Assembly (NCBI RefSeq): GCF_021513255.1
Contig: NZ_CP090977.1
Location: forward strand, 2,418,001-2,482,000
Length of the DNA stretch: 64,000 nt
DNA from: Planococcus sp. 107-1
GTDB lineage: Bacteria > Bacillota > Bacilli > Bacillales_A > Planococcaceae
Direction: 5' to 3'
The position numbers were made by a program, and so were the translations under genes. The notes under the pieces were generated by a model. That model searched no databases, was not told the origin of the DNA, and was given only the letters and a program-made list of their open reading frames with translations. Numbering within the stretch: the stretch's first letter is position 1; each line of letters opens with the position of its first letter. Positions 1 through 12,689 of the stretch are shown piece after piece.

Positions 1-432
1 ATATTGCAAGGGAACTTATACGTATCGCGCCAAATCCCTCTAGGAAACGGCAATAAAGTCCAGGAACTGCGCCACGAAATTCCTGATCTCACTATAGAGG
101 AAGGCAGTTTGCTAAAAAGCTTCTGGCTCCCGCCAAAACACCAAGTGCAAACGTGGTTTATGTTGGCCCAAACTCCATTTTTCGAATCCGAAGAAACGGA
201 AGACGAATGGGTTCAATTTGCCGCTGAAAACCGGCAACAGCAACTGAATTGGCTGACGCCTGCTGGACCATTGGTTAAAGTCGAACAAACAGACGATCTT
301 CGCACAGAGCTTGCCTATGATTTAAACGAAAATCGGACAGCAGATACGGTTTCAGCAGAATGGAATGAAAAATCCCCTTCCCTCTTTTTTGAATCGATGA
401 TGCTGAACGCTGACATCAATTCAGGTAAATGA
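1..432 (+). CDS. Hypothetical protein, C-terminal part (cut by window edge)
   Basis: The frame is open from the first base to the TGA at 430-432, so the gene almost certainly starts outside the window. The visible 143 residues are acidic, with no signal peptide or membrane segment and no motif I recognise. The tail carries a short aromatic/proline stretch (PSLFFESMML). It is followed after 5 bases by a strong hairpin terminator. I cannot assign a function. Confidence 0.6.
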   Translation: MLQGNLYVSRQIPLGNGNKVQELRHEIPDLTIEEGSLLKSFWLPPKHQVQTWFMLAQTPFFESEETEDEWVQFAAENRQQQLNWLTPAGPLVKVEQTDDLRTELAYDLNENRTADTVSAEWNEKSPSLFFESMMLNADINSGK

Positions 433-437
433 TTAGG

Positions 438-474
438 ATCCGTAAAAGCAGTTTCGCTTTTGCGGATTTTTTTT
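438..474 (+). terminator. Rho-independent terminator
   Basis: Inverted repeat ATCCGTAAAAGC / GCTTTTGCGGAT around a short loop, followed by a run of T. It lies directly after the stop of the partial first gene. Confidence 0.8.
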
Positions 475-525
475 GTAACAATCGTCCTCTTCAAGCGTCT
501 AACTCTAAAAATACGGGAGGATCTC

Positions 526-1095
526 ATGGCCAAAATATGGACAATCGTTTTCTTCATGCTCGCCGCTTTTCCTGCAATTGCACTCGCAGCACCCGATCCA
601 AATGAAGTGAAAGCGATTAAACAAGCAGCGCCAGTCCATCTGATTGGCACCGTTATTGAAGACGAGATGCTCGAACAAATCGATGACTCGAATTTCCCAT
701 ATCAGGAACGGAAGATGGTTTTACAGATCACCTCGATCGTTAAGGGCCTTGAAGAGGCAGATGCCAGTTCCTCTGTGGAAGTGCATTATACGTTTATTCC
801 GTCTTGGCTCGAGATGGAAGGCGGAGCCCGGATGGACATTGCTAAATCGGACGAAATCGAAATTTGGCTAAAAAAAGAGGCAGGTGTCTTAAAACCCGCT
901 CTTTCAGGAAATACGGTTGTGCATCTATATAAAAATGAGAAGCGTCCGCAACACATGCTTCTCCCTGCAACAACCGTGCCAAATTTTATTAAAAGCAAAT
1001 TGAGTGCCATGCCTCTCGGAATAATCGTAGCGGTCCTGCTCTTTTTCTCCTTATTTCTAATTGCCGGTATTTCAAAACGATTTTCTGCTCGTTAA
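526..1095 (+). CDS. Exported membrane-anchored protein of unknown function
   Basis: The start at 526 is chosen because GGGAGG lies 5 bases upstream; longer in-frame starts from 460 lie in the preceding terminator. The 189-residue product begins with a clear signal peptide (MAKIWTIVFFMLAAFPAIALA, cleavage probably after ALA). A soluble middle part follows, and the C-terminus has one hydrophobic helix (GIIVAVLLFFSLFLIAGI) with a basic tail, so the protein is probably displayed outside the membrane and anchored at its C-end. There are no cysteines or catalytic motifs that I recognise. It sits alone between a terminator and a small gene. Function unknown. Confidence 0.75.
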   Translation: MAKIWTIVFFMLAAFPAIALAAPDPNEVKAIKQAAPVHLIGTVIEDEMLEQIDDSNFPYQERKMVLQITSIVKGLEEADASSSVEVHYTFIPSWLEMEGGARMDIAKSDEIEIWLKKEAGVLKPALSGNTVVHLYKNEKRPQHMLLPATTVPNFIKSKLSAMPLGIIVAVLLFFSLFLIAGISKRFSAR

Positions 1096-1210
1096 CACGC
1101 AAATCCGAGTTCATTCGCTTCCAATAAAACAGAATAATCAGTATAATTAACAGAGAGAGAATAATTCATCCTTCAGCTAACGATTTTATTCATAAGGAGG
1201 CTATTTCATC

Positions 1211-1378
1211 ATGGAACGCGCTCGAGTGGACCAAAAAGAAATTACCCGTCTCTTGGATGAAGATTATTATGCGGCTTTGAATATGATTGGCGAAGGCGGA
1301 CCGGATTTTGCGGCTATTGAGGATGATGCACCTGAAGAAGTGAAGCGAGACGCCAAGAAGGCGGAAGAGCTTCACTAA
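1211..1378 (+). CDS. Small acidic protein, 55 aa, unknown function
   Basis: A short frame with ATG at 1211 and a near-perfect ribosome binding site AAGGAGG at 1194-1200 (10 bases upstream). The product is soluble and highly charged: an amphipathic N-half (MERARVDQKEITRLLDEDYY), a GEGGPDF turn, and an acidic then lysine-rich tail. A terminator follows 20 bases after the TAA. The good initiation site plus terminator argue for a real gene despite the size. I do not recognise the family. Confidence 0.65.
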   Translation: MERARVDQKEITRLLDEDYYAALNMIGEGGPDFAAIEDDAPEEVKRDAKKAEELH

Positions 1379-1400
1379 AATTTTATCTTAGAACAAAATA

Positions 1401-1439
1401 AGGCCCCGAGAAAGCCATGCTTTCTCAGGGTCATTTTTT
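1401..1439 (+). terminator. Terminator between convergent genes
   Basis: Hairpin with arms CGAGAAAGC and GCTTTCTC extended by flanking CCC/GGG pairs, followed by a T run. It closes the 55-aa gene and lies against the 3' end of the convergent oxidoreductase gene. Confidence 0.75.
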
Positions 1440-1441
1440 GC

Positions 1442-2449
1442 TCATTCCATTAATTCGGCAATGATTTCATAAGAACGCAGACGATCTTTCTGGTGGAAAA
1501 TCTGCGAATTGATGATTACTTCGTTCGCTCTTGTTTTATTGATGAAACTGCGCAGTTTTTCACGAACCACATCCGGTGTCCCGACAATCATCGATTCCGA
1601 ATCCAATTTCTCACGGAAAATCGCAATTTCACGGTCCGTCCATTCCTCTTCCAAATTATCGATTGGCGGCATGAAAGTTGTTGGCATTCCGCGCATCAAA
1701 GCAAACATTTGCGCTTGGCTTGAAGTCGCTAACCACTCAGCCCGTTCTTGAGTATCGGCTGCGATCACATTGACCCCAACCATTGCATAAGGCTCTTGCA
1801 AGTCTTTCGATGGTTTGAAATTCTGATGGTACAATTGCATGGCTTGCATCGTAAAGTCCGGTGCAAAATGGCTGGCAAACGAAAAAGGCAATCCTTTCAC
1901 TGCTGCAAGCTGGGCGCTATAGCCGCTTGAGCCCAATAGCCATAAAGGAATATTCAAGCCGATTCCTGGATAAGCCTTGACGCGGCCAACCGGGTTATCG
2001 GAAAAATAATTCTGCAGTTCAGCGACAGACTGCGGAAATTCATCCACATTGCTCTGCAAATTTCGGCGGAGCGCATAAGCCGTTGCCTGGTCGCTCCCTG
2101 GCGCCCGTCCCAATCCAAGATCGATCCGTCCTGGATAAATCGTCTCGAGCGTTCCAAACTGTTCAGCAATGACGAGCGGTGCATGGTTAGGCAGCATAAC
2201 CCCACCTGACCCCACTCGGATCGTATTCGTATGGCCTGCAATATGGCCAATTAATAAAGAAGTCGCAGAACTGCCGATTCCTGGCATATTGTGATGCTCA
2301 GCAAGCCAGTAACGGTTAAAGCCCCATTTCTCTACATGCTGGGCAAGTTCTACACTATTTGCAAAAGACTCAGCCGTTTCGCTGCCTTCATTGATCGGCG
2401 CTAAATCCAAAACGGATAAGGGAACATTTTCAAATTTCTTTTGATTCAT
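1442..2449 (-). CDS. Luciferase-like (LLM class) flavin-dependent oxidoreductase
   Basis: A TIM-barrel protein of the bacterial luciferase family, predicted to oxidise an unknown substrate with reduced flavin and oxygen. The opening [10 protein letters not shown], the motif [13 protein letters not shown] near residues 44-56, the SGGVMLPNH loop, [14 protein letters not shown] near 107-120 and LLGSSGYSA in the middle are typical of the MsnO8/YceB-like branch. The start at 2449 (MNQKKF) is preferred: AAGGAGTG lies 8 bases upstream, while the longer frame to 2503 has no ribosome binding site. The length of 335 aa is usual. The gene is monocistronic by appearance. The substrate cannot be told from sequence. 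Confidence 0.85.
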
Positions 2450-2518
2450 CTGATCTTCACTCCTTGTCACTAATATTGTAGCGATTTTGCCAAATAAAGG
2501 CATGCAATCAGCTCAGAC

Positions 2519-2800
2519 GAGAAAAGCGCAAGCGCCCATCTAGCCCCGACAGGCTTAAGGCAGAACACACAGGAAATCCTGATTTCCGCAGTGGGCTGAC
2601 TTAAGACCCCGAGGGGCTGGGCGCTGGAAACTGGACAACGAAAAGCGCAGGCAGCTCGCCAGCCGCGACAAGCGCTGGAAGCCTTAGCGGTAATGGCGGG
2701 TTTTGCCATTGCTGATAAGGCTGAAGCGACCTCGAGCGGCTAGCTGCCGGAGTCTGGACAATCAGAAAAGCGGAGCCGCCTTGACAGCCGCGACAAGCTT
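2519..2800. repeat. Tandem array of palindromic intergenic repeat elements
   Basis: Three units begin with GAAAAGCG at about 2521, 2640 and 2765. The first two are about 120 bp long and end in TGGACAA; the third is cut after about 36 bp. Each is GC-rich and largely self-complementary: in unit one AGCGCCCATCTAGCCCC pairs with GGGGCTGGGCGCT; in unit two TAATGGCGGG sits opposite a complementary stretch in TTTTGCCATT. Reading frames across the block have no ribosome binding site and differ between units, so it is not coding. It fills the gap between the oxidoreductase promoter and the PAS-STAS operon terminator. Confidence 0.75.
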
Positions 2801-2837
2801 AGGTCCCCCCATATCCCCACGCTAATTTCTGCCACAT

Positions 2838-2876
2838 AAAAAAGCCGACTCGGGATTTTTCGAGTCAGCTTTTGCT
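2838..2876 (-). terminator. Terminator of the PAS-STAS/B12 operon
   Basis: On the minus strand AAAGCTGACTCG / CGAGTCGGCTTT frames a small loop and is followed by a T run. The hairpin begins inside the last codons of the PAS-STAS gene. Confidence 0.8.
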
Positions 2877-3641
2877 GGTTTCTGGGCGCAAAGCAATTAC
2901 TTCCTGCAAAGAAGAAATAAACTTTACGGACAATAGCGATTGAAGATGATGAAGCTTTTTAGCATGAATCGGTTTCACTCCGCAAATAATGCTTTCTGTT
3001 CCCATCACGGAGATTGTCTGCAAAAGAGATTCTAAGCTGGTCAATCCCTGACTTGTAATTTTAGTCATTGCAGTAAAGTCCAGAATGACCATTTCCGCAT
3101 CTACTTGATAAATATTTTCCAACAAGCGGGAACTGACTGCTTCCACTTTTTCTCTGGATAATTCCCCAAATAACGGTATTAAGAGCCGGTCCCTATCCAA
3201 TTGGATGCAAGGAGCGGATAACTCTTGGACTTGCTGCAACAAGTCCGCAGTCCGTTCTTTTTCCAAAAATAAATCATAATCGGTTTCATTTAGACGGGAA
3301 CGGAGCTGGCCAAGCTGCTGGATGACTCTCTCCATTTTACCGTCTTTAGGCACAAGTATTACAGATAAGCTAAATTGGCTGTCCCATTTTGCAAAAACAT
3401 CTGCCAAAATCAGATTGCTTGGCTGGGCGATCACATTCAGTTCAAATTTTTCGACCACCGTTCCAGAAGCAAGCATCTTCTTTGCTTTGTTTGCACTCGC
3501 TTCATCCACGATTTCTAAGAATGACGAAATCTCGCCAAACAAACGCCGAGCTTCGTCGGAACAATTGACCACGGAGAGCTTTTCGTTTAACCGAAAAGCC
3601 GGGAGCGGCAATGCATCATATTGATATTCTGTATTCATCAT
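2865..3641 (-). CDS. PAS-STAS domain protein, RsbR-like
   Basis: The protein has 258 residues. Residues about 10-98 look like a PAS-type sensor fold (FRLNEKLSVVNCSDEARRLFG), 103-138 form a long charged helix, and 142-250 are a STAS domain. The STAS part follows the RsbR pattern: LLIPLFGELSREK, VILDFTAMTKITSQGL, then IICGVKPIHAKKL. Thr196-Ser197 occupy the place of the phosphorylated residues in SpoIIAA/RsbR proteins. In Bacillus, RsbR paralogues form stressosomes that control sigma B; YtvA joins a light-sensing LOV domain to such a STAS domain. The start overlaps the preceding B12-domain gene by 26 bases, so the two are coupled in translation. A signalling role is inferred; the partner is unknown. 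Confidence 0.8.
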   Translation of the reverse strand: MMNTEYQYDALPLPAFRLNEKLSVVNCSDEARRLFGEISSFLEIVDEASANKAKKMLASGTVVEKFELNVIAQPSNLILADVFAKWDSQFSLSVILVPKDGKMERVIQQLGQLRSRLNETDYDLFLEKERTADLLQQVQELSAPCIQLDRDRLLIPLFGELSREKVEAVSSRLLENIYQVDAEMVILDFTAMTKITSQGLTSLESLLQTISVMGTESIICGVKPIHAKKLHHLQSLLSVKFISSLQEVIALRPETSKS

Positions 3642-4269
3642 CCGGCTCCTCTCCCGTTTTAATCCAGTGTTCCAGTTGCTCGAGGTCCTTCACTAAAATG
3701 GCGCCTTCATCAATCAGGATGCGGCTGCTTTCAAATGCAGCCGCTCGGCCACCGACGATGATTGCAGGAGCATGCGCCAGCTCTTTGAAACTTTTGATAT
3801 AAGCTTTTAAAGTTGGCAGACGATAGACAAGCGCCGCTGATAAAGCGATGGTGTCTGGCTGCCAGCGATTGGCCGCTTCTATAGCATGGTCAAGCGGCAT
3901 ATTCGGCCCTAAATAATGGACAACCCAGTCGTTTTCACGGAAAAGGCTTGAGACCATCTTCAATCCGATATAATGTTCTTCACCCTCAGGCCCTAATACC
4001 ATGACTTTTCGTTTTGAAGAATGCGTTTCTTCTCCCCGCTTATCAATTATCGAAACGACAAAATCGCAAATCGCCGTAGCAAGATGTTCATCTGCCACTG
4101 AAATGGTATTCGTTTCCCATAACTCACCGATATGGTACATGGCAGGTGTTAATAGCTGATCAAAAAGTTTTTTCCGGTTATGGCTGTCGAGAAATTGCTG
4201 AACTTGCACCAGCGCTTCCCGGTCGTTGCCTTGTAAAAAAAGTTCGGCTAATTCGGTTGGTTGGATCAT
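3616..4269 (-). CDS. Stand-alone cobalamin-binding photoreceptor-like protein (CarH/LitR sensor half)
   Basis: The protein has 217 residues in two parts. Residues about 5-80 are a helical cap with Trp51 followed by Glu61-His62, spaced exactly as the W-x9-EH signature of the light-sensing B12 domain of CarH. Residues about 87-205 form the Rossmann-like cobalamin domain, with the E-x-H-x-x-G motif at Glu97/His99/Gly102 that gives the lower cobalt ligand in this class, and SAALVYRLP and IVGGRAA further on. CarH and LitR carry an N-terminal MerR helix-turn-helix; here it is absent, so the protein cannot act as a DNA-binding repressor itself. It lies between a helical small protein (4 bases away) and PAS-STAS (overlapping). 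Light or adenosylcobalamin sensing is inferred from motifs only. Confidence 0.8.
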   Translation of the reverse strand: MIQPTELAELFLQGNDREALVQVQQFLDSHNRKKLFDQLLTPAMYHIGELWETNTISVADEHLATAICDFVVSIIDKRGEETHSSKRKVMVLGPEGEEHYIGLKMVSSLFRENDWVVHYLGPNMPLDHAIEAANRWQPDTIALSAALVYRLPTLKAYIKSFKELAHAPAIIVGGRAAAFESSRILIDEGAILVKDLEQLEHWIKTGEEPDDEYRISI

Positions 4270-4273
4270 CTGA

Positions 4274-4645
4274 TCAACCTCCCTTCTTCAAATTGCTGCC
4301 TTTCAACAAATCGATCGCCTCTTGAAGGCATTGTTGCATAAATTCTCTTTCTTTCAGTTCAACTTCTGCATCCAATAATCCAATGAGTCTTTCAAAATTA
4401 TCTATGATCAAGTCTGACTCGACATTTCGGCTCGTTAATACCTTTTCCAGCCATAATGTATATTCAAGAAACACCTGTCTATCGTTCAAACCATACGCCG
4501 TCTCCAAATGGTCGAGATGATGCATATTGTCTTTTTCGGTATGGTCAAATCCGCGTTCTCCAAAACGATCCCATAGGGTTGGATATGCTTCATATATTTG
4601 AATCGCGATGCTTTTGGCAATTTGCTTCTTTAAATCTTGCTTCAT
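4274..4645 (-). CDS. Small all-helical protein of the B12-sensor operon
   Basis: This is an alpha-helical protein of 123 residues with no signal peptide or membrane helix. Its centre, HTEKDNMHHLDHLETAYG, then LEYTLWLEKVLTSRNV, resembles the helical N-terminal extension I recall from some larger cobalamin-binding proteins (pattern D-x-x-x-H-L-x-x-L then Y-x-x-W). That comparison is from memory. It may be a separated domain that works with the B12 protein encoded next. Its ATG overlaps the stop of the monooxygenase gene (ATGA), and its own last codons carry the AGGGAGG site of the next gene. Function unknown. Confidence 0.7.
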   Translation of the reverse strand: MKQDLKKQIAKSIAIQIYEAYPTLWDRFGERGFDHTEKDNMHHLDHLETAYGLNDRQVFLEYTLWLEKVLTSRNVESDLIIDNFERLIGLLDAEVELKEREFMQQCLQEAIDLLKGSNLKKGG

Positions 4646-4947
4646 TCTGCCACCACCTCATACTGATGGACTTTTGGCACTATGCCGGCAAGCGCTTTGT
4701 CCGGATAATGCTTTTCGAGATCATGGATTTCCTTGAACTCATTGCTTCTTACCCATTCCATGTAGGCCTCTTTTGAATGCCATTCCAAGTGGACAGTCAA
4801 TTCATTGCGTTTCTTTGTATTCTGGATCAGCCGGAAAGAATGGAATCCAGGAGCTTTATCTACTCGTCTTGAACGTTTGCGATAAATATCAATGAGGTCC
4901 TGAGTCTTCTCTTCAGGCACCACAACAGTGGATGTCACAATATACAT
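4642..4947 (-). CDS. HmoA-like antibiotic-biosynthesis-monooxygenase (ABM) family protein
   Basis: A single ABM/IsdG-like ferredoxin-fold domain of 101 residues. It opens with MYIVTSTVVVPEEK, very like HmoA of B. subtilis, and has the middle motif VHLEWHSKEAYMEWVRS and a later FKEIHDLEKH. In heme-degrading IsdG/HmoA enzymes an Asn, a Trp and a His are catalytic; Trp and His are present, but the early Asn is Ser here, so heme oxygenase activity is uncertain. The start at 4947 has AAGGGGT about 9 bases upstream; the longer frame to 4983 covers the promoter. It is the first gene of the operon with the B12 sensor and PAS-STAS genes. Confidence 0.75.
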   Translation of the reverse strand: MYIVTSTVVVPEEKTQDLIDIYRKRSRRVDKAPGFHSFRLIQNTKKRNELTVHLEWHSKEAYMEWVRSNEFKEIHDLEKHYPDKALAGIVPKVHQYEVVAE

Positions 4948-4981
4948 CAGATTACCCCTTTGAAATAAAGTGTTAATATCC

Positions 4982-5010
4982 ATTATAACCTTTCGTCTTT
5001 CGAATTAAAA
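4982..5010 (-). promoter_or_regulatory. Candidate promoter of the B12-sensor operon
   Basis: On the minus strand a TATAAT lies about 35 bases before the first start codon, but no good -35 sits 17 bases upstream of it. Instead TTTTAA, 13 bases, AGGTTA resembles a sigma B promoter (GTTTAA ... GGGTAT). Which one is used cannot be decided by eye. Confidence 0.35.
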
Positions 5011-5157
5011 GAAATCGCCCATTTGCCTATAAAGCGTTTAAATCTTAAAACGTTTTTTCCATTTAAAAGAATATTTTCACAATTTCTCTTGCAGTTTCTG
5101 GTGAGATGGTTTAAGCTTGAAGACATCGCAACATCCATAACTTCATATTATTTATTT

Positions 5158-5262
5158 CTTATCAAGAGAGACGGAGGGATTTGGCCCTTTGATGTCTCAG
5201 CAACCAGCCTGACGAAGGCCACGGTGCTAATTCCAAAAGGCATATGCCTTAAAGATGAGAAG
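5158..5262 (+). promoter_or_regulatory. SAM-I (S-box) riboswitch
   Basis: All conserved S-box blocks appear in order: CTTATCAAGAGAG, GGAGGGA, GGCCC, GATG, CAGCAACC, GGTGCTAATTCC and GATGAGA. It is followed by a perfect terminator hairpin and then metC. High S-adenosylmethionine should favour termination, and low levels antitermination. Confidence 0.95.
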
Positions 5263-5280
5263 AACGCGTTCCCTATAAAA

Positions 5281-5316
5281 CGGGGCTTTCTTCTTGCTGA
5301 AGAAAGCCCCGTTTTT
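5281..5316 (+). terminator. Riboswitch expression-platform terminator
   Basis: CGGGGCTTTCTTC / GAAGAAAGCCCCG hairpin plus T run, 18 bases after the S-box core and before metC. Confidence 0.9.
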
Positions 5317-5362
5317 CTATGCATTAACCAGAACCGTTCTCTACAACTAATAGGAGGTTTTC

Positions 5363-6541
5363 ATGATGGCAAATCATTTAGAGACTCGTTTTATCCATTC
5401 AACTGGCGTAGACAAAGAAACAGGGGCAGTCAACGTCCCTATTTACTTGTCCTCCACTTATCATCAGCCCAATATCGATGAGTTCGGACCATTCGACTAC
5501 AGCCGTTCAGGCAATCCAACGCGTCAAAAATTAGAGGAAACGATTGCGAAACTCGAAAACGGCACCCGTGGATTTGCCTTTTCTTCCGGCATGGCTGCGA
5601 TCTCCTCTGCTTTCATGCTTTTATCTGCCGGAGACCATGTTCTCGTTTCTGAAGATGTCTACGGCGGAACTTATCGTTTCGTCACAGAAGTGCTGAATAA
5701 ATTCAATATCGACTACACATTCGTCAATATGACCGATCTCAGTGAGATGGCCGCTGCCATCCGCGAAAATACAAAAGTCATCTATATTGAAACGCCTTCT
5801 AACCCGGTGATGAACATCACAGATATTGAAATCGCAGCTAAACTTGCAAAAGCGAACGATTGTTTAACTTTTGTCGATAATACATTCATGACGCCTCTTT
5901 ATCAAAACCCACTTGACCTTGGAGCAGACATCGTCTTGCATAGCGCTACAAAATTCCTTTCCGGCCATAGTGACATCATTGCCGGACTCGCTGTGACAAA
6001 AGACGAAGAGCTCGGCAGCCGGCTCGCTTTTATCCAAAACACATTCGGTTCGATTTTAGGGGCGCAAGATTCTTATTCACTTATCCAAGGCATTAAAACA
6101 CTTGGTGCCCGTATGAAACAGTCGTCCGCATCAGCTCGAATTATTGCCGATTATTTGCATAGCCATCCCGTAGTAGAAGAAGTATATTACCCCGGTTTCC
6201 GTTTCCATCCGGGAAATCCGATACATGAACGCCAAGCACGTGGAGCAGGTGCAGTTCTGTCCCTGCGCCTCGCCGATAAAGCCGCAGCCAAAATTTTCGT
6301 CGACAGCTTGCAAATTCCGGTTTTCGCAGTATCGCTCGGGGCAGTTGAAACAATTCTTTCCTACCCAGCGACCATGTCTCATGCATCTATGCCAAAAGAA
6401 CAGCGTGAGCAGCGAGGAATCACCGACGGTTTACTGCGATTGTCCGTTGGTTTGGAATATGCTGATGACTTGCTCGAAGATCTCGAACAAGCATTAAAAA
6501 AAGTACGCGAAGCTAGCCCACAACCTGTATTAACTAAATAA
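5363..6541 (+). CDS. metC: Cystathionine beta-lyase (trans-sulfuration, methionine synthesis)
   Basis: A PLP enzyme of the Cys/Met-metabolism family that splits cystathionine to homocysteine, pyruvate and ammonia. The 392-residue length matches B. subtilis MetC (about 390), and stretches such as FDYSRSGNPTR (44-54), GTRGFAFSSGMAAIS, HVLVSEDVYGGT and LSYPATMSHA follow that protein closely. The PLP lysine is Lys197 in HSATKFLSGHSD. AGGAGG ends 5 bases before the first ATG; a second ATG three bases on is equally possible. The S-box upstream ties it to methionine metabolism, favouring MetC over a generic gamma-synthase. No metI partner lies next to it. Confidence 0.9.
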   Translation: MMANHLETRFIHSTGVDKETGAVNVPIYLSSTYHQPNIDEFGPFDYSRSGNPTRQKLEETIAKLENGTRGFAFSSGMAAISSAFMLLSAGDHVLVSEDVYGGTYRFVTEVLNKFNIDYTFVNMTDLSEMAAAIRENTKVIYIETPSNPVMNITDIEIAAKLAKANDCLTFVDNTFMTPLYQNPLDLGADIVLHSATKFLSGHSDIIAGLAVTKDEELGSRLAFIQNTFGSILGAQDSYSLIQGIKTLGARMKQSSASARIIADYLHSHPVVEEVYYPGFRFHPGNPIHERQARGAGAVLSLRLADKAAAKIFVDSLQIPVFAVSLGAVETILSYPATMSHASMPKEQREQRGITDGLLRLSVGLEYADDLLEDLEQALKKVREASPQPVLTK

Positions 6542-6595
6542 AGCAAGATACGAACCCGGACAGACATCAAGTTTTCTCATGCTTCTACACAACCT

Positions 6596-6636
6596 AAAAA
6601 GCCGTTCACCTTTACAAAAGATGAACGGCTTTCTTC
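6596..6636. terminator. Bidirectional terminator between metC and malic enzyme
   Basis: AAAGCCGTTCA / TGAACGGCTTT hairpin with A run on the left and T-rich right side, between two convergent genes. Confidence 0.8.
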
Positions 6637-6645
6637 TATATATTG

Positions 6646-7887
6646 TTATTCTCTGACAATAGCTGCAGTTAAATCATCTTTGTTTTCATTAACTTGATTT
6701 AGGCAAGCAGCATAGTTGGCAACGCCTGTTTCGATTGCCGCAGCAGCTACCGCTTTAGCAACTGCTGTAGCCACGCGCAGATCAAAAGGAGTTGGAATGA
6801 CATAATCCTCGTGGAGTTCATCTTCTTCAATCAAATCGGCAATGGCTTCAACTGCTGCAATTTTCATCGCATCATTGATTTCACTGGCTTGCACGTCTAA
6901 CGCCCCTCTGAATATGCCTGGGAAAGCTAATACATTATTCACTTGGTTTGGAAAATCCGACCGTCCTGTACCAATTACTTTGGCTCCTGCACGCTTAGCC
7001 TCATGCGGCAAGATTTCAGGATTCGGATTTGCCATCGCAAAAATAATGGGGCCTTCCGCCATGGTTCTCACCATTTCTTCAGTTAATGCACCTTCTGCAG
7101 AAACACCGATAAAAACATCCGCGCCGATAACGACCTCGTGGAGCAAACCTTCGTTGCGCTCGAAGTTGGTTATCTCTGCAACTTCTTCTTTAAACGGATT
7201 CATACCATAAGTTCGGCCTTTGAAAATCGCACCTTTTGTATCGCACATGATTACGTCGTTAAAGCCGAATTTACAAAGAAGCTTAACCACAGCAATTCCC
7301 GCAGCACCTGCCCCGTTAACGATGATTTTCGTCCCTGCAATCCCTTTTCCTATCAGCTTTAGCGCGTTAATCAAGCCGGCTAAAGTGACAATGGCGGTTC
7401 CATGCTGATCATCATGGAATACAGGTATATTCATTTCTTCTTTTAAACGCTGTTCTACGATAAAGCAAGTCGGTGCAGAGATATCCTCTAAATTCACACC
7501 GCCAAATCCAGGTTCCAATAATTTCACGGTCTGGATAATGGTTTCGGCATCTGTCGATCCAAGGCAAATTGGAAAAGCATCCACTCCAGCAAACTCTTTA
7601 AAAAGTACGGCTTTTCCTTCCATGACAGGCAAGGCAGCTTCAGGACCAATATTTCCGAGTCCAAGTACAGCGGTTCCATCTGTGACAACGGCTACTGTAT
7701 TGCCTTTCATCGTGTAATCGTAGACTTTGGCGGGCTCCTGCGCTATTTCCTTGCACGGTTCGGCCACTCCAGGAGAATACGCAAGACTTAGATCGCGTCC
7801 ATTTTCCACCGCCACTTTCGACCGTACTTCCAACTTCCCTTTATGCTGCAGATGCAATTGCAAAGAGTCATTTCTCAGATTCGACAT
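6646..7887 (-). CDS. ytsJ: Malic enzyme, YtsJ type
   Basis: This enzyme decarboxylates malate to pyruvate using NAD(P). The 413-residue protein follows B. subtilis YtsJ (about 410 aa) nearly throughout: LSLAYSPGVAEPCK, YDYTMKGNTVAVVTDGTAVLG, VFHDDQHGTAIVTLAG, the dinucleotide loop NGAGAAGIA, and IFAMANPNPEI. The start at 7887 is set by AAAGGAGATG upstream; the longer frame to 8028 runs through the promoter. A cre-like box lies about 100 bases upstream. YtsJ prefers NADP, but cofactor choice cannot be settled from these motifs alone. Confidence 0.9.
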   Translation of the reverse strand: MSNLRNDSLQLHLQHKGKLEVRSKVAVENGRDLSLAYSPGVAEPCKEIAQEPAKVYDYTMKGNTVAVVTDGTAVLGLGNIGPEAALPVMEGKAVLFKEFAGVDAFPICLGSTDAETIIQTVKLLEPGFGGVNLEDISAPTCFIVEQRLKEEMNIPVFHDDQHGTAIVTLAGLINALKLIGKGIAGTKIIVNGAGAAGIAVVKLLCKFGFNDVIMCDTKGAIFKGRTYGMNPFKEEVAEITNFERNEGLLHEVVIGADVFIGVSAEGALTEEMVRTMAEGPIIFAMANPNPEILPHEAKRAGAKVIGTGRSDFPNQVNNVLAFPGIFRGALDVQASEINDAMKIAAVEAIADLIEEDELHEDYVIPTPFDLRVATAVAKAVAAAAIETGVANYAACLNQVNENKDDLTAAIVRE

Positions 7888-7917
7888 CGCTTCATCTCCT
7901 TTAACACATAATGGTTC

Positions 7918-7946
7918 ATTATAGAGTGATTTCTGGAAATTGAAAG
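7918..7946 (-). promoter_or_regulatory. Putative promoter of the malic enzyme gene
   Basis: Minus-strand TATAAT at 7918-7923 with a poor -35 (CTTTCA) 17 bases upstream, about 30 bases before the start codon. Confidence 0.4.
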
Positions 7947-7989
7947 TCTTTTTCGTAATATTCGGACTTTTGACTGAGAGTTTAAAAAT

Positions 7990-8003
7990 TGAAAACGCTT
8001 TCT
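7990..8003. promoter_or_regulatory. cre-like CcpA box upstream of malic enzyme
   Basis: TGAAAACGCTTTCT matches the cre consensus TGWAANCGNTNWCA at 13 of 14 places. It lies about 45 bases upstream of the putative -35, a place where CcpA can activate (as for ackA/pta in B. subtilis) as well as repress. Confidence 0.5.
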
Positions 8004-8029
8004 TTTCGGTATTTTGGATCACAAACAAA

Positions 8030-8054
8030 AAAGCCCCATTAGGAGCTTTTTAGC
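8030..8054 (-). terminator. Terminator of the 109-aa gene
   Basis: Minus strand AAAAAGCTCC / GGGGCTTTTTT hairpin with T run, 15 bases after the stop of the small gene. Confidence 0.7.
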
Positions 8055-8069
8055 TTCATGTTAAGATTT

Positions 8070-8399
8070 TCATAAATGAAACGATTCATCGTAAATCGGT
8101 TTCATATGCAAATCGAATTTGCCTTTTACTTCCTCAATATCGTAAATGTTTCCGGGAACTTCACCTTTTTCGATTTTATCAATATGCGTCTTTACAAGAT
8201 CGGCAAAATATTTTCCGCAAGCGACGTCATTGGGGTATTGCGCTTTTACTCTTTCCACAAGTTCTTCACTCATAATTTCCTTAAAGGCATAATACAAGGC
8301 TGCATTTATAAGCGTCAATGAATCTTTGCCAGCATACGAAACGAAATAATAATTGCCATACCGGTCTTTTAACAAATCCCTTTTCGCTACAACTTCCAT
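8070..8399 (-). CDS. Conserved-looking small soluble protein, unknown function
   Basis: The product has 109 residues from ATG 8399, with AAGGAG about 10 bases upstream; an in-frame GTG at 8408 lies too close to that site. The protein is a soluble alpha/beta mix (MEVVAKRDLLKDRYGNYYFVSYAGK, LINAALYYAFKEIMSEEL, a basic-acidic C-half) without membrane segments or metal motifs. It has its own terminator and no operon partner. I do not recognise the family. Confidence 0.65.
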   Translation of the reverse strand: MEVVAKRDLLKDRYGNYYFVSYAGKDSLTLINAALYYAFKEIMSEELVERVKAQYPNDVACGKYFADLVKTHIDKIEKGEVPGNIYDIEEVKGKFDLHMKPIYDESFHL

Positions 8400-8501
8400 T
8401 TCATCCACTCTCCTTATGTCCTTTGTGATTCCATACCCTTAGCCCTTCTTCAAAAAACGTTTACCCCTAGATTCTCAATCGGAGTAAGCTTTTCCTCCAT
8501 A

Positions 8502-8535
8502 GAAAAAGCCAGTGGCACTTGCCACTGGCTCCTTT
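8502..8535 (-). terminator. Terminator of the YeiH-like transporter gene
   Basis: GGAGCCAGTGGCAAGTGCCACTGGC-type hairpin (arms GCCAGTGGCA / TGCCACTGGC) followed by T run on the minus strand. Confidence 0.85.
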
Positions 8536-8542
8536 GTATTAT

Positions 8543-9685
8543 TTACACGGAAATCAATCCGCCAAATAACGATATCAGCAGTAAACTGACCATCCCGACG
8601 GAAATGGCTGCGATAAATCCGATATAGAATGGCTTAATGCCCATTCCTTTAAATACTTTCAAATTCGTACCAAGCCCTACTGCTGCCATCGCTAGGCCGA
8701 GCATGTAAGTAGAACCGAACGAACTCCAAAAACTATAGAAACTTTCCCAAGTACCCGGATCCCATATTCCAAAAGCCGAGCCGGAAGAAGCCATTGTAGA
8801 ATCACCGATTGTCCGCAACAATGACAAGAATAAAAATCCTAAAATAAACAATGGGAATAATTTATACCATTTCGGCAATTGGGCTGCCTGTCCATTTTCT
8901 TTGTTGTTCCGGTAGAACAAGAACGAAACAAACGGGATGACTGCAATGATAAAAACATTGCGGGTCAGTTTGGTGATGGTTGCAACATCTACCACTGTTG
9001 ATGAATTATATAATTGATCGTATATTAAGGCTGCACCTGTGACTTGCGCAGTGTCATGGATAGCCGTTCCAAGGAATAACCCGGCTTTTATCGGCTCATC
9101 CGCGAAAAAAGCATTGGCCAAGTACGGATAAAAAAGCATGCCAAGCAAACCGAAAATCGTGATATTGGCGACTGCATAAGAAATCTCATTTTCCTTCGCT
9201 TTAATGACGGGTGCTGTCGCCATAATGGCTGTAACGCCGCAAATCCCGGTGCCTGTAGCGATTAAAGTCCCTAATCGCTTGGATTGATTCATTTTTGCTG
9301 TAAAAAATAATGTGACAAAAAGTCCTACGGAAATACATGCCACAATGAGCGGCAATCCCCATGCCCCTAATTTTAAAGCTTCGGTCATGCTCAGACGCAA
9401 ACCAAGCAAAATAATTCCCGCACGCAATGCATATTTAAGGGCAAAACTGATTCCTTTAGCAAATGCATCCGGCAAACCGATAAGATTGCGGATCAGGATT
9501 CCGAGAACGATGGCTACAAAAATGCCTGATATCGGGCTAGCACCGCCTTCCGGTAAAATTCCCGCAGCCTGCAATCCGATGCCAATCCAATCCGCACCGA
9601 TGATTCCTGCCATCATGACAATAAAACAAAGCACTAAACCTGGAATCAGGCGGAGAATAGATGCTTTCTTACCATTTTCAACCAT
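8543..9685 (-). CDS. YeiH/UPF0324 family membrane transporter (putative sulfate exporter family)
   Basis: A 380-residue integral membrane protein with about ten hydrophobic helices. Family marks are GIFVAIVLGILIRNLIGLP, YALRAGIILLGLRLSM, LIATGTGICGVTAIMATAPV (repeated glycine/threonine motif) and GLFLGTAIHDTAQVTGAA. Members have been proposed to export sulfate or related anions; that is not proven for most. The start MVENGKK at 9685 has GAGGAG 10 bases upstream; the ATG at 9703 has none. No LysR regulator adjoins it, unlike the E. coli yeiH arrangement. Confidence 0.85.
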   Translation of the reverse strand: MVENGKKASILRLIPGLVLCFIVMMAGIIGADWIGIGLQAAGILPEGGASPISGIFVAIVLGILIRNLIGLPDAFAKGISFALKYALRAGIILLGLRLSMTEALKLGAWGLPLIVACISVGLFVTLFFTAKMNQSKRLGTLIATGTGICGVTAIMATAPVIKAKENEISYAVANITIFGLLGMLFYPYLANAFFADEPIKAGLFLGTAIHDTAQVTGAALIYDQLYNSSTVVDVATITKLTRNVFIIAVIPFVSFLFYRNNKENGQAAQLPKWYKLFPLFILGFLFLSLLRTIGDSTMASSGSAFGIWDPGTWESFYSFWSSFGSTYMLGLAMAAVGLGTNLKVFKGMGIKPFYIGFIAAISVGMVSLLLISLFGGLISV

Positions 9686-9779
9686 AATACTTCTGCTCCT
9701 CATCTCTAACTAGTCTTTTTCTATCGTAACATTTCCAAAGCATTTCGGGGAACGAACAGGCTTCTGAAGCACACCATGA

Positions 9780-9808
9780 AAAAAGAACAGGAATTTCTTC
9801 CTGTCCCA
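9780..9808 (-). terminator. Terminator of the CapK-like/kinase operon
   Basis: GGACAGGAAG / TTCCTGTTC hairpin with T run on the minus strand, 17 bases after the stop. Confidence 0.7.
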
Positions 9809-9824
9809 CCTTTGAAATCATACT

Positions 9825-11183
9825 TTAATTAGCCAGTTTATTAATGATGAGCTGAAAATCTTCGTCCATATTTTTAGGCATTTCTTCAACCACCCGGATA
9901 TTAAATTTCATATCCTGGCTGAATGCAGACTGCAAGTTTTGATGAATCGTTTTGGAGAGTTCATTTGTATAGGTTTCCCCGGCTTCCACAAACACTTCAA
10001 TCTCTTCCTTTTTATGCTGGACAAATTGCATTTTCTTTACACTTTCGGAAAACGCAATGTCGGTTTCATCCAACTGAGGCAATTGCACTTTTATATTATC
10101 CGCTATGGTTAAACAGCTTGAATCGGATTCTTTGCGGCATTCAATGATGGGCTGAGACGATCCACATGTACAATTTGCAGCCCCATTATTCAGCTCAGCA
10201 TATACCCCAGTTTTACAACGGATGATCGGCGTTCCGTAGCTCATAAAATTGGTGACAATCATTTCCCCGTCTTCAGCCAATTCAATGATACCGGCTCTTG
10301 GGTGGATGTGAAACTTTCCTGTTGAGCATTCGGACATGATCGGAAATTCGTAAGAAGGGACAAAATAAGTGCGCACGGGACAGGTAAAAGCTTTTTCGAT
10401 TTCTATTTGCTGAGCCGGTTCCATCAACCCACCTTGCAGAAAGATTGCTTGCGGCGAGAATGCCAGTTTCTCCTTTGTTTCGTTCAAAAAAATGGCAAGC
10501 TTATATAAGATCGGAGAAGTTCCAGTGATAAAGGCAGGTTGAAATTCATTCAGGTTTCGTATATACAATTCGGCATTCTCTTGTGTGCAATGATAGTTCG
10601 AATATAACCGAATATTTTCCGGACGGTTATCCCGCCAATAGGCTTTCTTTTGCTGAGCTTTTGGAACAATCTTTCTGGAAGTAAAAATCGCTTGTTTCAT
10701 TGCCCTGGAGGCTCCACCATCCTGCTGTTTGTAAAAATCCATAAACGCATTGCGCTTTTGAATATCTTCTTTTGTGAGCAGAAACTTCAGCGGAACCCCT
10801 TCTCGGTCAATTTCGTGGGCAACGGCAGCAGCCGCGCCCTCTACTGCATGCATCTGATGAATATGCTGTTGAATGGCTTCTCTGTCCAGTAAGGGAAGTT
10901 TCGGCAAATCACCGATTCCCTGAATCGCCTTTAACTCAATCCCTTGATAAATCTTCCGATAGAATGGGCTCTGCCCGATTGAATGCTCCAGCAGTCTGCG
11001 AAATTCATTCCACCGGGCTTCTTCTCCACGTTCAACATTTGTTTTGGACATAAGTTCGCGCATCAAGGCCGCATAAGTATCCCCATATCGCTCTTCTTTC
11101 ACCTTTTTGTTTTCAACGCTTATATAAAGATTTTGGAAGTATATCGGCAAATGATTATAGATAATCGATAAGAAATTTTGCAA
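9825..11183 (-). CDS. CapK/PaaK-like adenylate-forming family protein with degenerate active site
   Basis: The fold is recognisable as phenylacetate-CoA-ligase/CapK-like: SPFYRKIYQG, LPKLPLLDREAIQQH, FLLTKEDIQKRNAFMDFY, FQPAFITGTSPILYKLA. Two normally catalytic stretches are altered. The phosphate-binding TSGSTGxP loop reads HEIDREGVP, and the R-x-x-TGD motif reads RCKTGVY. A CTCGSS cysteine pair follows. The TTG start at 11183 has AAAGGAGG 7 bases upstream; longer frames run into the kinase gene. It lies 16 bases after the tyrosine kinase gene and is probably co-transcribed. In capsule loci CapK-like proteins have an unsettled role; here activation of an acid looks doubtful, so a binding or scaffold role is possible. 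Confidence 0.75.
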   Translation of the reverse strand: MQNFLSIIYNHLPIYFQNLYISVENKKVKEERYGDTYAALMRELMSKTNVERGEEARWNEFRRLLEHSIGQSPFYRKIYQGIELKAIQGIGDLPKLPLLDREAIQQHIHQMHAVEGAAAAVAHEIDREGVPLKFLLTKEDIQKRNAFMDFYKQQDGGASRAMKQAIFTSRKIVPKAQQKKAYWRDNRPENIRLYSNYHCTQENAELYIRNLNEFQPAFITGTSPILYKLAIFLNETKEKLAFSPQAIFLQGGLMEPAQQIEIEKAFTCPVRTYFVPSYEFPIMSECSTGKFHIHPRAGIIELAEDGEMIVTNFMSYGTPIIRCKTGVYAELNNGAANCTCGSSQPIIECRKESDSSCLTIADNIKVQLPQLDETDIAFSESVKKMQFVQHKKEEIEVFVEAGETYTNELSKTIHQNLQSAFSQDMKFNIRVVEEMPKNMDEDFQLIINKLAN

Positions 11184-11199
11184 TGCACTTCCTCCTTTG

Positions 11200-11892
11200 C
11201 TACTGATGGTAGTCCTCATAATATTGGTTATTCTCCAATTCATGATTGTTTAAGATAACACCTAAAATAGTGGCTTTTGAGGAGATTAATGCCTCTTTTG
11301 CTTTCACGATTCTTTTTTTATCGGTTTTCCCGCTGCTCACTACCAAAACGGTGCCATCGCATTTGTTGGCTAAAATCTTCGAATCTGCAATGGTCAAAAT
11401 AGACGGCGAATCGAAAATGATGACATCGTAATATTTTTTCATTTCCGTCATTAATTGTTCCAAAGCGGCAGTTCCTAAAAGTTCTGCAGGATTGGACGGG
11501 ACATGGCCACATGGAAGTACTTCCAAGCCGACAATGCCAGTTCGCTTAACCGTATCCAGAAGTTCGCCTTTTTTCAGAAGCAAGCTCGAAAAACCATTGC
11601 GGCTTGCAATACCGAAAAAATGATGGACTGAGGGCCTGCGCATATTCCCATCCACCAATAGAACTTTTTTGCCCGATTCTGCGTAGACAATGGCTATATT
11701 CAAAGCAGTTGTGGTCTTCCCTTCCCCATTCTCAGCGGAAGTGAATAGAATGGTTCTTACATTCGAATGCGGCATCGTAAAATTCAAGTTTGTGCGTATG
11801 CTTCTATATTGCTCAGCAGCAAGCGAATTCGTTTTTGGTATTTCAATCGGCTTACTCCCGCTTGCCCGCTTCGTTTTCTTTTGAATCCCCAT
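11200..11892 (-). CDS. CpsD/CapB-family bacterial tyrosine kinase
   Basis: This is a cytoplasmic P-loop tyrosine kinase that normally works with a CpsC/CapA membrane activator to control polysaccharide polymer length. Residues about 22-35 carry LAAEQYRSIRTNLNF, the Walker A is NGEGKTTTALN, Walker A' is LLVDGNMRRP and Walker B is VIIFDSP. The tail ends in a tyrosine cluster (YYEDYHQ), the usual autophosphorylation site. The start at 11892 has GGAGGAG about 10 bases upstream; upstream in-frame codons lack a site. No CpsC/CapA-type activator gene is adjacent, which is unusual; it could be elsewhere. Confidence 0.85.
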   Translation of the reverse strand: MGIQKKTKRASGSKPIEIPKTNSLAAEQYRSIRTNLNFTMPHSNVRTILFTSAENGEGKTTTALNIAIVYAESGKKVLLVDGNMRRPSVHHFFGIASRNGFSSLLLKKGELLDTVKRTGIVGLEVLPCGHVPSNPAELLGTAALEQLMTEMKKYYDVIIFDSPSILTIADSKILANKCDGTVLVVSSGKTDKKRIVKAKEALISSKATILGVILNNHELENNQYYEDYHQ

Positions 11893-11990
11893 CGGGTGCC
11901 AACTCCTCCGTACTGCAAGATTTCCGCTCGCCTTTCTTAAACGAGCAGTTCCTCTTGGCAAACATCGTTTGCTTGAATGTCATTGAAGCT

Positions 11991-12689
11991 TCAATTCATG
12001 TTATGGGCGAATTTATAGCCGAACCCTCGAATGGTGCGGATATAAATTGGATTAGCAGGATCTTTTTCGACTTTTCTTCTCAGGTTGCTAATATGGACCT
12101 TTACCGTTTGAAGTTCGCCAGCGGAATAATAGCCCCATATTTGGTTATATAGCTGTTCAGCTGTCCAAACCCGATTCGGTTGTTGGGCCAGCAATAAGAG
12201 CAGCTGAAACTCTTTGTGATTTAAGTGAATAGGGTTGCCACCTATATACACTTGCCTTGCATCTGCATGAATATGTAAATCCCCGTAACGAAGTACTGTT
12301 AAATCGACCGTTTCCTGCGTCCATCCCGTTCTTCTTAAAACAGCTCGGATTCTTGCTTCCAGCTCGTTGAAATCAAAAGGCTTTGTAATGAAATCATCTC
12401 CGCCTGCATCTAGGCTTTGAATTTTGAAAGACAACTCTTTCCGATAACTGATGAAAAGGATAGGCAGCCTTGAACGGGAACGAATTTTTGCACAGACTTC
12501 CAAGCTATTGATGCCTGGCATTTCCGCATCCAATAAAATCAAATCCGGTTCTCTTATTTTAAGAAGTTCAATGACTTCAGAACCTTCGTTTACCTCTATG
12601 ACTTTATATCCTTTCTCCTTTAAAAACGTATGGATCAACTCCCGTACCCACTTTTCCTCTTGGATTACCATGACTGTCGCGCTTATCAT
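11991..12689 (-). CDS. OmpR/PhoB-family response regulator (orphan)
   Basis: Receiver domain (1-115) with phosphoacceptor Asp54 (LILLDAEMPG) and Lys103 (ITKPFDF), followed by a winged-helix DNA-binding domain (about 130-230; KEFQLLLLLAQQPNRVWTAEQL ... RTIRGFGYKF). The acidic pair that normally helps bind Mg near residue 10 reads QEE rather than DDE, and the conserved Thr after strand four is Ser. AGGAGG lies 8 bases upstream. No histidine kinase gene is next to it. Position between the tyrosine kinase and the divergent LCP gene suggests control of cell-surface polymer genes; this is inference. Confidence 0.85.
   Translation of the reverse strand: MISATVMVIQEEKWVRELIHTFLKEKGYKVIEVNEGSEVIELLKIREPDLILLDAEMPGINSLEVCAKIRSRSRLPILFISYRKELSFKIQSLDAGGDDFITKPFDFNELEARIRAVLRRTGWTQETVDLTVLRYGDLHIHADARQVYIGGNPIHLNHKEFQLLLLLAQQPNRVWTAEQLYNQIWGYYSAGELQTVKVHISNLRRKVEKDPANPIYIRTIRGFGYKFAHNMN

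Follow-up and report, generated by a model that had tools for sequence, protein, structure and literature searches.

A putative split photocobilin operon with a trans-acting STAS output in Planococcus sp. 107-1

Among the genes encoded in a 64,000-nucleotide stretch of the Planococcus sp. 107-1 genome (assembly GCF_021513255.1, contig NZ_CP090977.1, positions 2,418,001 to 2,482,000; hereafter, the window), four adjacent ones on the minus strand (window positions 2865-4947) deserve attention as a possible light-sensing unit. Read in the direction of transcription, they encode an HmoA-like monooxygenase-type protein (HMO), a 123-amino acid (aa) protein, a stand-alone CarH-like B12 protein of 217 aa, and a 258-aa protein with a PAS-like N-terminal domain (hereafter PASN) and a C-terminal STAS domain. 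We favour, as the probable explanation, that this operon is a split photocobilin whose output acts in trans, through the PAS-like domain, on a YtvA-like STAS domain, and it is homology, gene fusion, co-occurrence and sequence motifs that speak for it. An initial annotation, made from the sequence letters, had placed the four open reading frames (ORFs) exactly where we find them. It had also described an HmoA-like and a “small helical protein” preceding the B12 gene, of which the positions and the ABM family of the former hold, but the helical protein had gone unrecognised as a bilin globin. This identification changes the picture, because with a bilin globin in the operon the sensor probably consists of two proteins and carries two chromophores, as a photocobilin, and is not a lone B12 sensor.

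The B12 protein, the bilin globin and their HmoA-like neighbour

The 217-aa protein (3616-4269, minus strand), which reads as a stand-alone adenosylcobalamin-binding protein of the photosensor type, matches the Pfam families B12-binding_2 (E 6e-14) and B12-binding (E 3.7e-14), and contains the motifs W51-x9-E61-H62 and E97-x-H99-x-x-G102. No MerR domain was matched by Pfam in this protein, where B12-binding_2 already starts at residue 6; residues and family matches agree here with the initial annotation, which had proposed a CarH signature without a MerR domain. In an alignment of 45 rows, three of them duplicates, W51, E61, H62, E97, H99 and G102 are invariant in all 42 distinct sequences, so that the signature is not due to chance, whilst G48, G121 and P125 are equally invariant (42/42) and G96, the first glycine of GxxH, is kept in 36 of the 42. 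The light signature of B12 domains has been given as GxxW, EH, GxxH and GxxxP (PMC11796333), all of which are present in the 217-aa protein.

When a profile of 25 members of the B12 family was compared with solved structures, the photocobilin SasPcob came first (E 2.6e-26), CarH followed at 4e-12 and AerR at 9e-5; the corrinoid proteins 8jbs and 1y80 and methionine synthase ranked between SasPcob and CarH, and the profile alignment shows that 1y80, a plain corrinoid protein, has neither the Trp nor the Glu-His. The residue following the signature Trp is Glu52, whereas TtCarH has at this place a His that serves as the light-state ligand. Both the ranking and the presence of Glu52 in place of His indicate that the B12 protein resembles the B12 domain of photocobilins more than that of CarH. 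A search of plasmids with the same protein returned 51 records, 31 of them from Thermus and all below 60% identity, and the plasmid records among the matches listed (20 of 51) are all carH or MerR genes.

The 123-aa protein (4274-4645, minus strand) gave no significant family match in Pfam or NCBIfam and nothing informative in PHROGs, and a phmmer search with this single sequence retrieved the globin half of SasPcob as the best solved structure (E 0.012). A profile built from 26 stand-alone relatives produced nine PDB matches up to E 10, which include three photocobilin chains (0.02, 0.02 and 0.24) and phycocyanin alpha (0.29). Once the fused relatives described below were added to the profile, 9/9 PDB matches (E<=1) were photocobilins (best 1.2e-4) or phycobiliproteins (phycocyanin alpha, 1.8e-4); moreover, the Pfam family Phycobilisome matches 8 of 22 members of the globin family, with a best E of 1.4e-5. 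Asp270 and Trp296 are the reported biliverdin contacts of SasPcob (PMC10979010), and the residues of the 123-aa protein that align with them, Asp39 and Trp65, are invariant in 69/69 distinct globin relatives (the SasPcob chain numbering in our alignments runs 6 lower than that of the paper, and was anchored by Trp61, Glu71 and His108). In phycocyanin, the counterpart of Asp39 is the Asp of the bilin-binding CXRD motif. The Cys of this motif corresponds to position 36, where 19 of the 69 relatives have Cys and the other 50 Thr; photoglobins are reported to carry CXQD (PMC10151467), and six fused globin-B12 proteins of Bacilli read TxQD. Its sequence relatives identify the 123-aa protein as a bilin globin of the phycobiliprotein type, or photoglobin.

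The first gene of the operon (4642-4947, minus strand) encodes HMO, a 101-aa protein of the HmoA/IsdG type with a Pfam ABM domain (E 3.7e-15), and its best solved structure is the heme-degrading monooxygenase 8avh (E 2.5e-8). The catalytic triad of IsdG is formed by Asn7, Trp67 and His77 (PMC6018153); its Trp is found as Trp65 of HMO in 55 of 56 distinct relatives and its His as His75 in all 56, whereas the position of Asn7, to which we return, differs. HMO may bind heme with an altered chemistry, or may hand over a bilin. As for the second chromophore, the Planococcus genome contains matches to cobalamin adenosyltransferases, three over the cut-off and two of them strong.

Fusion, co-occurrence and gene order across Bacilli

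The association between the two sensor proteins extends to other Bacilli. The globin profile matches 58 of 398 genomes sampled from the class. In 22 of the 398 the match falls within an ORF 357-391 aa long, and at that position the B12 profile likewise hits an ORF of identical length; six of these 22 candidates were fetched and all six turned out to be globin-B12 fusions, one of them (L108) with an HmoA-like gene directly upstream. The globin stands alone in 34 genomes from 12 families, and every one of them (34/34) also has a stand-alone B12 relative, a co-occurrence that holds even where the genes are unlinked (L101, L102, L117). Stand-alone B12 relatives are present in 37 genomes, three of which have no globin and 36 of which have PASN. 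The sampled genomes are related to each other, and for this reason a hypergeometric value for the co-occurrence is no true probability. These counts leave out the 22 fused globin ORFs, the globin fragments of G126 and G212, the PASN matches of G163 and G418 (E > 1e-4), and any B12 match weaker than E 1e-45, that is, CarH/LitR, MetH, the fused ORFs and a 264-aa ORF of G164 (E 2.1e-35, no globin match). In a second sample covering the whole phylum, globin matches occur in 15 of 398 genomes, seven of them outside the class Bacilli, where six of the ORFs concerned measure 359-378 aa and the seventh 219 aa.

At 25 of the 34 globin places, the globin gene is immediately followed by the B12 gene. Within the genus, 20 of 24 genomes, our strain included, carry the B12 gene, and the order HMO > globin > B12 > PASN-STAS is kept at 20/20 of these loci; among named species, the nearest relative by the B12 protein is P. 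ruber, with 93% identity. The same order appears in 20 of 25 named Bacillales loci, a set that overlaps the genus set, and those 20 comprise nine Planococcus and seven Sporosarcina loci plus those of Virgibacillus, Cytobacillus, Chryseomicrobium excrementi and Bacillus sp. FJAT-44742. The initial annotation had suggested looking for the four-gene order in other genomes, and held that an order confined to this strain would speak against its reading; what we found is an order conserved far beyond the strain, which also supports its central claim of a B12 protein without DNA-binding part coupled in trans to a STAS protein. Other arrangements are seen in Metabacillus iocasae (B12 > PASN-kinase > HMO > globin), in Bacillus tianshenii (B12 > PASN) and Priestia flexa (B12 alone), the HMO-globin pair being elsewhere in both of these genomes, and in Chryseomicrobium aureum and Tetzosporium hominis (L037, L040), with B12 > PASN-STAS alone. 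HMO adjoins the globin at 17 of 19 distinct stand-alone globin loci (among L101-L132; the exceptions are L122 and L132).

Two further observations concern the distribution of these genes. In one genus, g50 (L111, L112, L129, L141), each of the three genomes sampled has four or five B12 matches, and HMO-globin-B12 trios occur apart from B12-PASN pairs, which gives the impression of a single globin working for several B12 sensors. Globin pieces were also seen beside a PASN match in two genomes without a stand-alone B12 relative (G126:C29, ~50.18-50.71 kb, and G212:C1, ~549.3-550.2 kb), lineages in which the cassette may be decaying.

A PAS-like adaptor, its outputs and alternative readings

The fourth gene (2865-3641, minus strand) had been annotated initially as encoding a PAS-STAS protein. 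Its STAS domain (2886-3227) is clear (Pfam E 1.7e-9), but the PAS assignment of the N-terminal ~110 residues (PASN, 3312-3641) is weakly supported, as the window protein has no Pfam PAS match and 5 of 22 PASN relatives have marginal ones, the best at E 0.0013. A PASN profile searched against the PDB retrieved a single match, to an engineered repeat protein, which we take as an artefact. Whatever its fold, of the 44 B12 places in the sampled Bacilli, 39 have PASN encoded immediately after the B12 gene; four of the remaining places (G084, G213 and G231, from one genus, and G327) are HMO > globin > B12 clusters, and the fifth is G158. What follows PASN in the same protein varies. The partner can be a STAS domain, a HisKA-HATPase module (in Metabacillus L043 and in L141 and L142, with a weak HATPase match under the cut-off in L126), or a short tail, in which Pfam found no match in the four cases scanned (L123, L127, L130, L131). 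Short-tail PASN genes are located beside genes for CheB-CheR-PAS-kinase proteins (L123, L124, L127, L130) or beside a CheR gene (L045, L131). For the fused sensors of family f3, possibly Paenibacillus-like, HisKA-HATPase-receiver proteins follow in the four loci scanned of six (L104, L105, L107, L108), with an Hpt domain in those of L104 and L107. A domain that stays constant beside the sensor while the outputs are exchanged would fit a docking or receiver function, presumably one in direct contact with the sensor.

These data can be arranged into a possible mechanism. The bilin globin and the adenosylcobalamin-binding photosensor would form a complex, a two-chromophore sensor that elsewhere is one fused polypeptide, and HMO, found beside the globin in nearly all split loci, would most likely make or hand over the bilin. 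Under green light the Co-C bond of adenosylcobalamin would be cleaved, and the bilin would absorb red light and so affect this cofactor too, both as reported for photocobilins (PMC10979010, PMC11796333). The sensor thus changed would act on PASN in the protein encoded next, a constant part that would serve for docking or as receiver, and in Planococcus the YtvA-like STAS domain would most likely enter or modulate the RsbRST stressosome, and hence sigma B, alongside the LOV-type YtvA.

The components for such an output exist in the genome, which encodes a full LOV-STAS YtvA (321 bits, for a cut-off of 250), RsbR-like paralogues and a region that reads as rsbR-S-T-U-V-W-sigB-X. Of the products of this region, RsbW scores above its NCBIfam cut-off and SigB is recognised through a partial ORF; the other genes are presumably those named here, from generic matches and the usual gene order. 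In the same region, both the rsbU-like gene and sigB are divided between two overlapping ORFs each (L061:3091-4091 and 4937-5747), which reflects either a real lesion or an assembly error in a genome rated 94% complete. The best NCBIfam match of the operon's STAS protein is YtvA_fam, in its STAS half (E 5.5e-17; 62.1 bits, below the cut-off of 250), and against the PDB it finds YtvA (E 3e-8) ahead of RsbR (1.6e-6). An entry of this protein into the stressosome, as for YtvA, is plausible from this set of components.

The alternative that survives best, rather unlikely in our view and partly overlapping with the reading we prefer, accepts the sensor but places the STAS protein outside the stressosome, with some other partner or as a free-standing antagonist for a different anti-sigma or phosphatase system. 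The initial annotation had seen a STAS domain following the RsbR pattern, and the domain stands, but the pattern does not: at the two positions that we take to be the phospho-acceptor Thr sites of RsbR, Ser or Thr occurs in just 3/27 and 2/27 members of the family, and the window protein has Ser and Lys, so that both RsbR-type phospho-Thr positions are lost and RsbR-type phosphorylation was rejected as a mechanism. The N-terminal domain of the window protein, moreover, matches neither LOV nor any other Pfam family, and the sigma B-like promoter element that had been proposed upstream did not hold up, its best site scoring 10/12, a value equalled in 46 of 300 shuffles. On the other hand, the STAS domain with its linker resembles YtvA and RsbR most closely, and the genome carries the rsb region. 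The YtvA of this same genome has Ser and Glu at the two positions, and so also no Thr at the second site, yet YtvA is a known stressosome member.

A second alternative, which we consider improbable, is that the module senses the status of cobalamin or of heme and bilin (or the redox state) instead of light, and that the STAS protein relays a metabolic stress signal; the B12 protein would report the level of adenosylcobalamin, and the globin and HMO would report heme breakdown. A cobalamin-dependent change of oligomer is, for CarH, a property of the fold in the dark, HMO is a relative of heme monooxygenases, and no carotenoid or photolyase family was found by Pfam (E 1e-5) in the ten neighbouring ORFs (window 4-12689), four of which are matchless. 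Against a metabolic sensor, the Trp, Glu-His and axial His that define the light response (PMC11796333, PMC10979010) are kept in 42/42 distinct sequences, and the globin keeps its bilin-contact residues without exception, whereas the plain corrinoid protein 1y80 is without the Trp and the Glu-His. The weakest alternative, a lone CarH-like B12 light sensor acting on the STAS partner as the initial annotation had suggested, with the globin and HMO as separate heme-handling functions, is very improbable, since the two species with B12 > PASN-STAS only and no globin match (L037, L040) are outweighed by the globin and the B12 protein sharing one ORF in 22 of 398 genomes (6/6 fetched confirm it) and by the B12 protein accompanying the stand-alone globin in 34/34 genomes even when unlinked (L101, L102, L117), and a lone CarH-type sensor among unrelated neighbours was rejected on these same two grounds of fusion and co-occurrence.

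Several observations nevertheless weigh against the split photocobilin itself, and they add to the poor sigma-B site and the lost phospho-Thr positions already mentioned. The match of the single globin sequence to SasPcob is only at E 0.012, and the profile of stand-alone globins also picks up unrelated proteins, namely four anti-CRISPR chains (0.75-1.1) and a factor H binding protein (0.21). Regarding distribution, four of the 24 genus genomes do not have the B12 gene; no globin match was obtained anywhere in the genomes of C. aureum and T. hominis, which keep B12 > PASN-STAS, indicating that the globin can be dispensable; and five genomes have PASN but no stand-alone B12 relative, the PASN-kinases L137, L138 and L139 being from genomes of this kind. 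What is least secure is the role of HMO: Ser takes the place of IsdG Asn7 in 54/54 relatives with a residue there (of 56), which is the reason to think of altered chemistry or bilin handover, HMO lies beside the fused gene in only 1/6 loci, and no canonical heme oxygenase was found in the Planococcus genome by a search that was positive in 3 of 14 control genomes.

With these points in the balance, we propose only tentatively, and with less confidence than the split photocobilin itself, a broader hypothesis, where the operon would be one version of a widespread modular photosensory cassette of Bacilli. In such a cassette, a B12 protein and a bilin globin would make up a two-colour sensor in trans, and a PAS-like docking domain would relay its state to the output of each lineage, be it a stressosome STAS protein, a histidine kinase or a CheB/CheR-linked protein. 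The stressosome of Planococcus would in this way receive a green/red signal in addition to the blue one that enters through the LOV domain of YtvA, and the bilin would come from a non-classical HmoA-like protein.

Operon surroundings and relation to known systems

The region upstream of the operon reads better as a TTTTAA box and an extended -10 TATAAT than as a sigma-B site, and forms a promoter-like element TTTTAA-N17-TATAAT (4982-5010, minus strand) with an inverted repeat TTCG-N5-CGAA in its spacer. The repeat is perfect in 5 of 25 Planococcus rows (the window, L002, L003, L004 and L006) and keeps 7 of 8 letters, with an identical 5-nucleotide spacer, in 13 more; it is also perfect upstream of the operon of Chryseomicrobium excrementi (L039). 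A perfect repeat arose in 2 of 500 shuffles of the upstream stretch of the window, a rate that applies to 8/8 matches only. Searching the Planococcus genome for the operon-promoter pattern gave one match with 0 mismatches, at the operon, and one with 3 mismatches. The repeat is possibly an operator, and its binding by the LitR-type regulator of the genome is a guess. At the other end, an intrinsic-terminator-like hairpin (2840-2873, minus strand; -19.3 kcal/mol, z -6.5, 0/200 shuffles equal) overlaps the end of the STAS gene, and with the promoter-like element it suggests that the four genes probably form one operon. The B12 and STAS genes overlap, as initially annotated, by 26 nucleotides (3616-3641), and the globin and HMO genes by 4 nucleotides; for HMO, the mechanical ORF start is 4983, and 4947 is the start at a conserved MYIV.

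An Rfam search of window positions 1-9000 at the gathering threshold revealed no cobalamin riboswitch at the operon; its sole match was a SAM riboswitch (5156-5261, plus strand, 95.6 bits) upstream of the gene for a 392-aa Cys/Met metabolism PLP (pyridoxal phosphate) enzyme (5363-6541). The ten neighbouring ORFs in window 4-12689 look ordinary by Pfam, with a luciferase-like monooxygenase, the Cys/Met PLP enzyme, a malic enzyme and others. An intergenic repeat at 2515-2640 has 42 matches in the same genome, many of them partial (40 of 49 first-look candidates were scored).

The arrangement is of interest because a sensor, its probable chromophore supplier, an adaptor and an output would be gathered in a single four-gene operon of culturable bacteria that also bear a LOV-type YtvA, and the operon could give Bacillus-group bacteria a further way to sense light. 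The photocobilins characterised in the papers cited here are fused proteins, and the operon opens the bilin globin to testing as a separate subunit of a B12 photoreceptor. Two questions become testable as well, namely whether green and red light could reach the stressosome via cobalamin and bilin, and whether a single docking domain could work with outputs of unrelated kinds. For the design of green/red light switches, the exchange of outputs behind an unchanged PAS-like domain would be useful.

Several known systems share parts with this operon. CarH and LitR have the same kind of B12-binding light-sensor domain, whereas the operon protein has no MerR domain and carries Glu for the His after the Trp. 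The genome does contain a MerR-type LitR/CarH relative at a separate site (L062:5412-6194, ~3.055 Mb); it is 260 aa long (open frame 266), compared with frames of 300-416 aa in relatives of the genus, and may be shortened. AerR/PpaA (PDB 7te2) is another DNA-binding-free B12 protein that works in trans on a partner regulator: it is a stand-alone B12 antirepressor that acts on a DNA-binding repressor. It is distant in sequence from the operon protein (E 9e-5), and we know of no bilin globin associated with it. The STAS proteins YtvA/RsbL (LOV-STAS) and RsbR offer the same type of output, a two-domain layout and a probable stressosome input; YtvA/RsbL have a LOV domain where the window protein has a PAS-like domain without Pfam match, the chromophores would sit on partner proteins, and RsbR has phospho-Thr sites that are absent from the window STAS domain. 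IsdG, HmoA and HmuQ belong to the same ABM fold family as HMO, which shares the Trp and His of the triad and has Ser in place of the catalytic Asn.

The initial annotation knew of no described system with this layout, yet both trans-acting photocobilins (PMC10979010) and split globin/B12 clusters (PMC10151467) appear in the literature. The latter, BBAG-2 and pre-2, contain separate genes for a globin, a B12-binding protein and a bilin reductase, sometimes with a heme oxygenase, and such globins are reported to bind biliverdin (PMC10151467). They share with our operon the side-by-side separate genes for a bilin globin and a B12-binding protein; they differ in being largely from delta-proteobacteria, mainly Myxococcales, in having a canonical heme oxygenase and bilin reductase and not an IsdG-type protein, and, in the accessible part of that report, in having no STAS or PAS-like adaptor, while BBAG-2 has an RGMC motif (PMC10151467). 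As far as the open-licence literature goes, and among the matches listed, what is new here is the split form in Bacilli, the constant PAS-like adaptor with swapped outputs, the link within an operon to a stressosome-type STAS protein and the IsdG-type partner; a 2022 photoglobin paper may hold part of it.

The closest relatives are the photocobilins SasPcob and AbDPcob (PDB 8j2w, 8j2x, 8j2y; PMC10979010), which have the same type of B12 domain with its Trp, Glu-His and axial His signature, and a globin of the kind found in the operon, with the Asp270 and Trp296 contacts of SasPcob. According to the same source, a stand-alone photocobilin acts in trans through protein-protein contacts, a STAS/SpoIIE network being predicted in Saccharothrix, and the targets controlled by stand-alone photocobilins are called less clear; the output of AbDPcob is a fused diguanylate cyclase (PMC10979010), unlike in the operon. 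In those photocobilins both domains form one polypeptide (PMC10979010), and in Planococcus they are separate genes accompanied by an HmoA-like gene and a PAS-like/STAS adaptor. The operon would work like a photocobilin made of more than a single chain, and we file it as a variant of that family.

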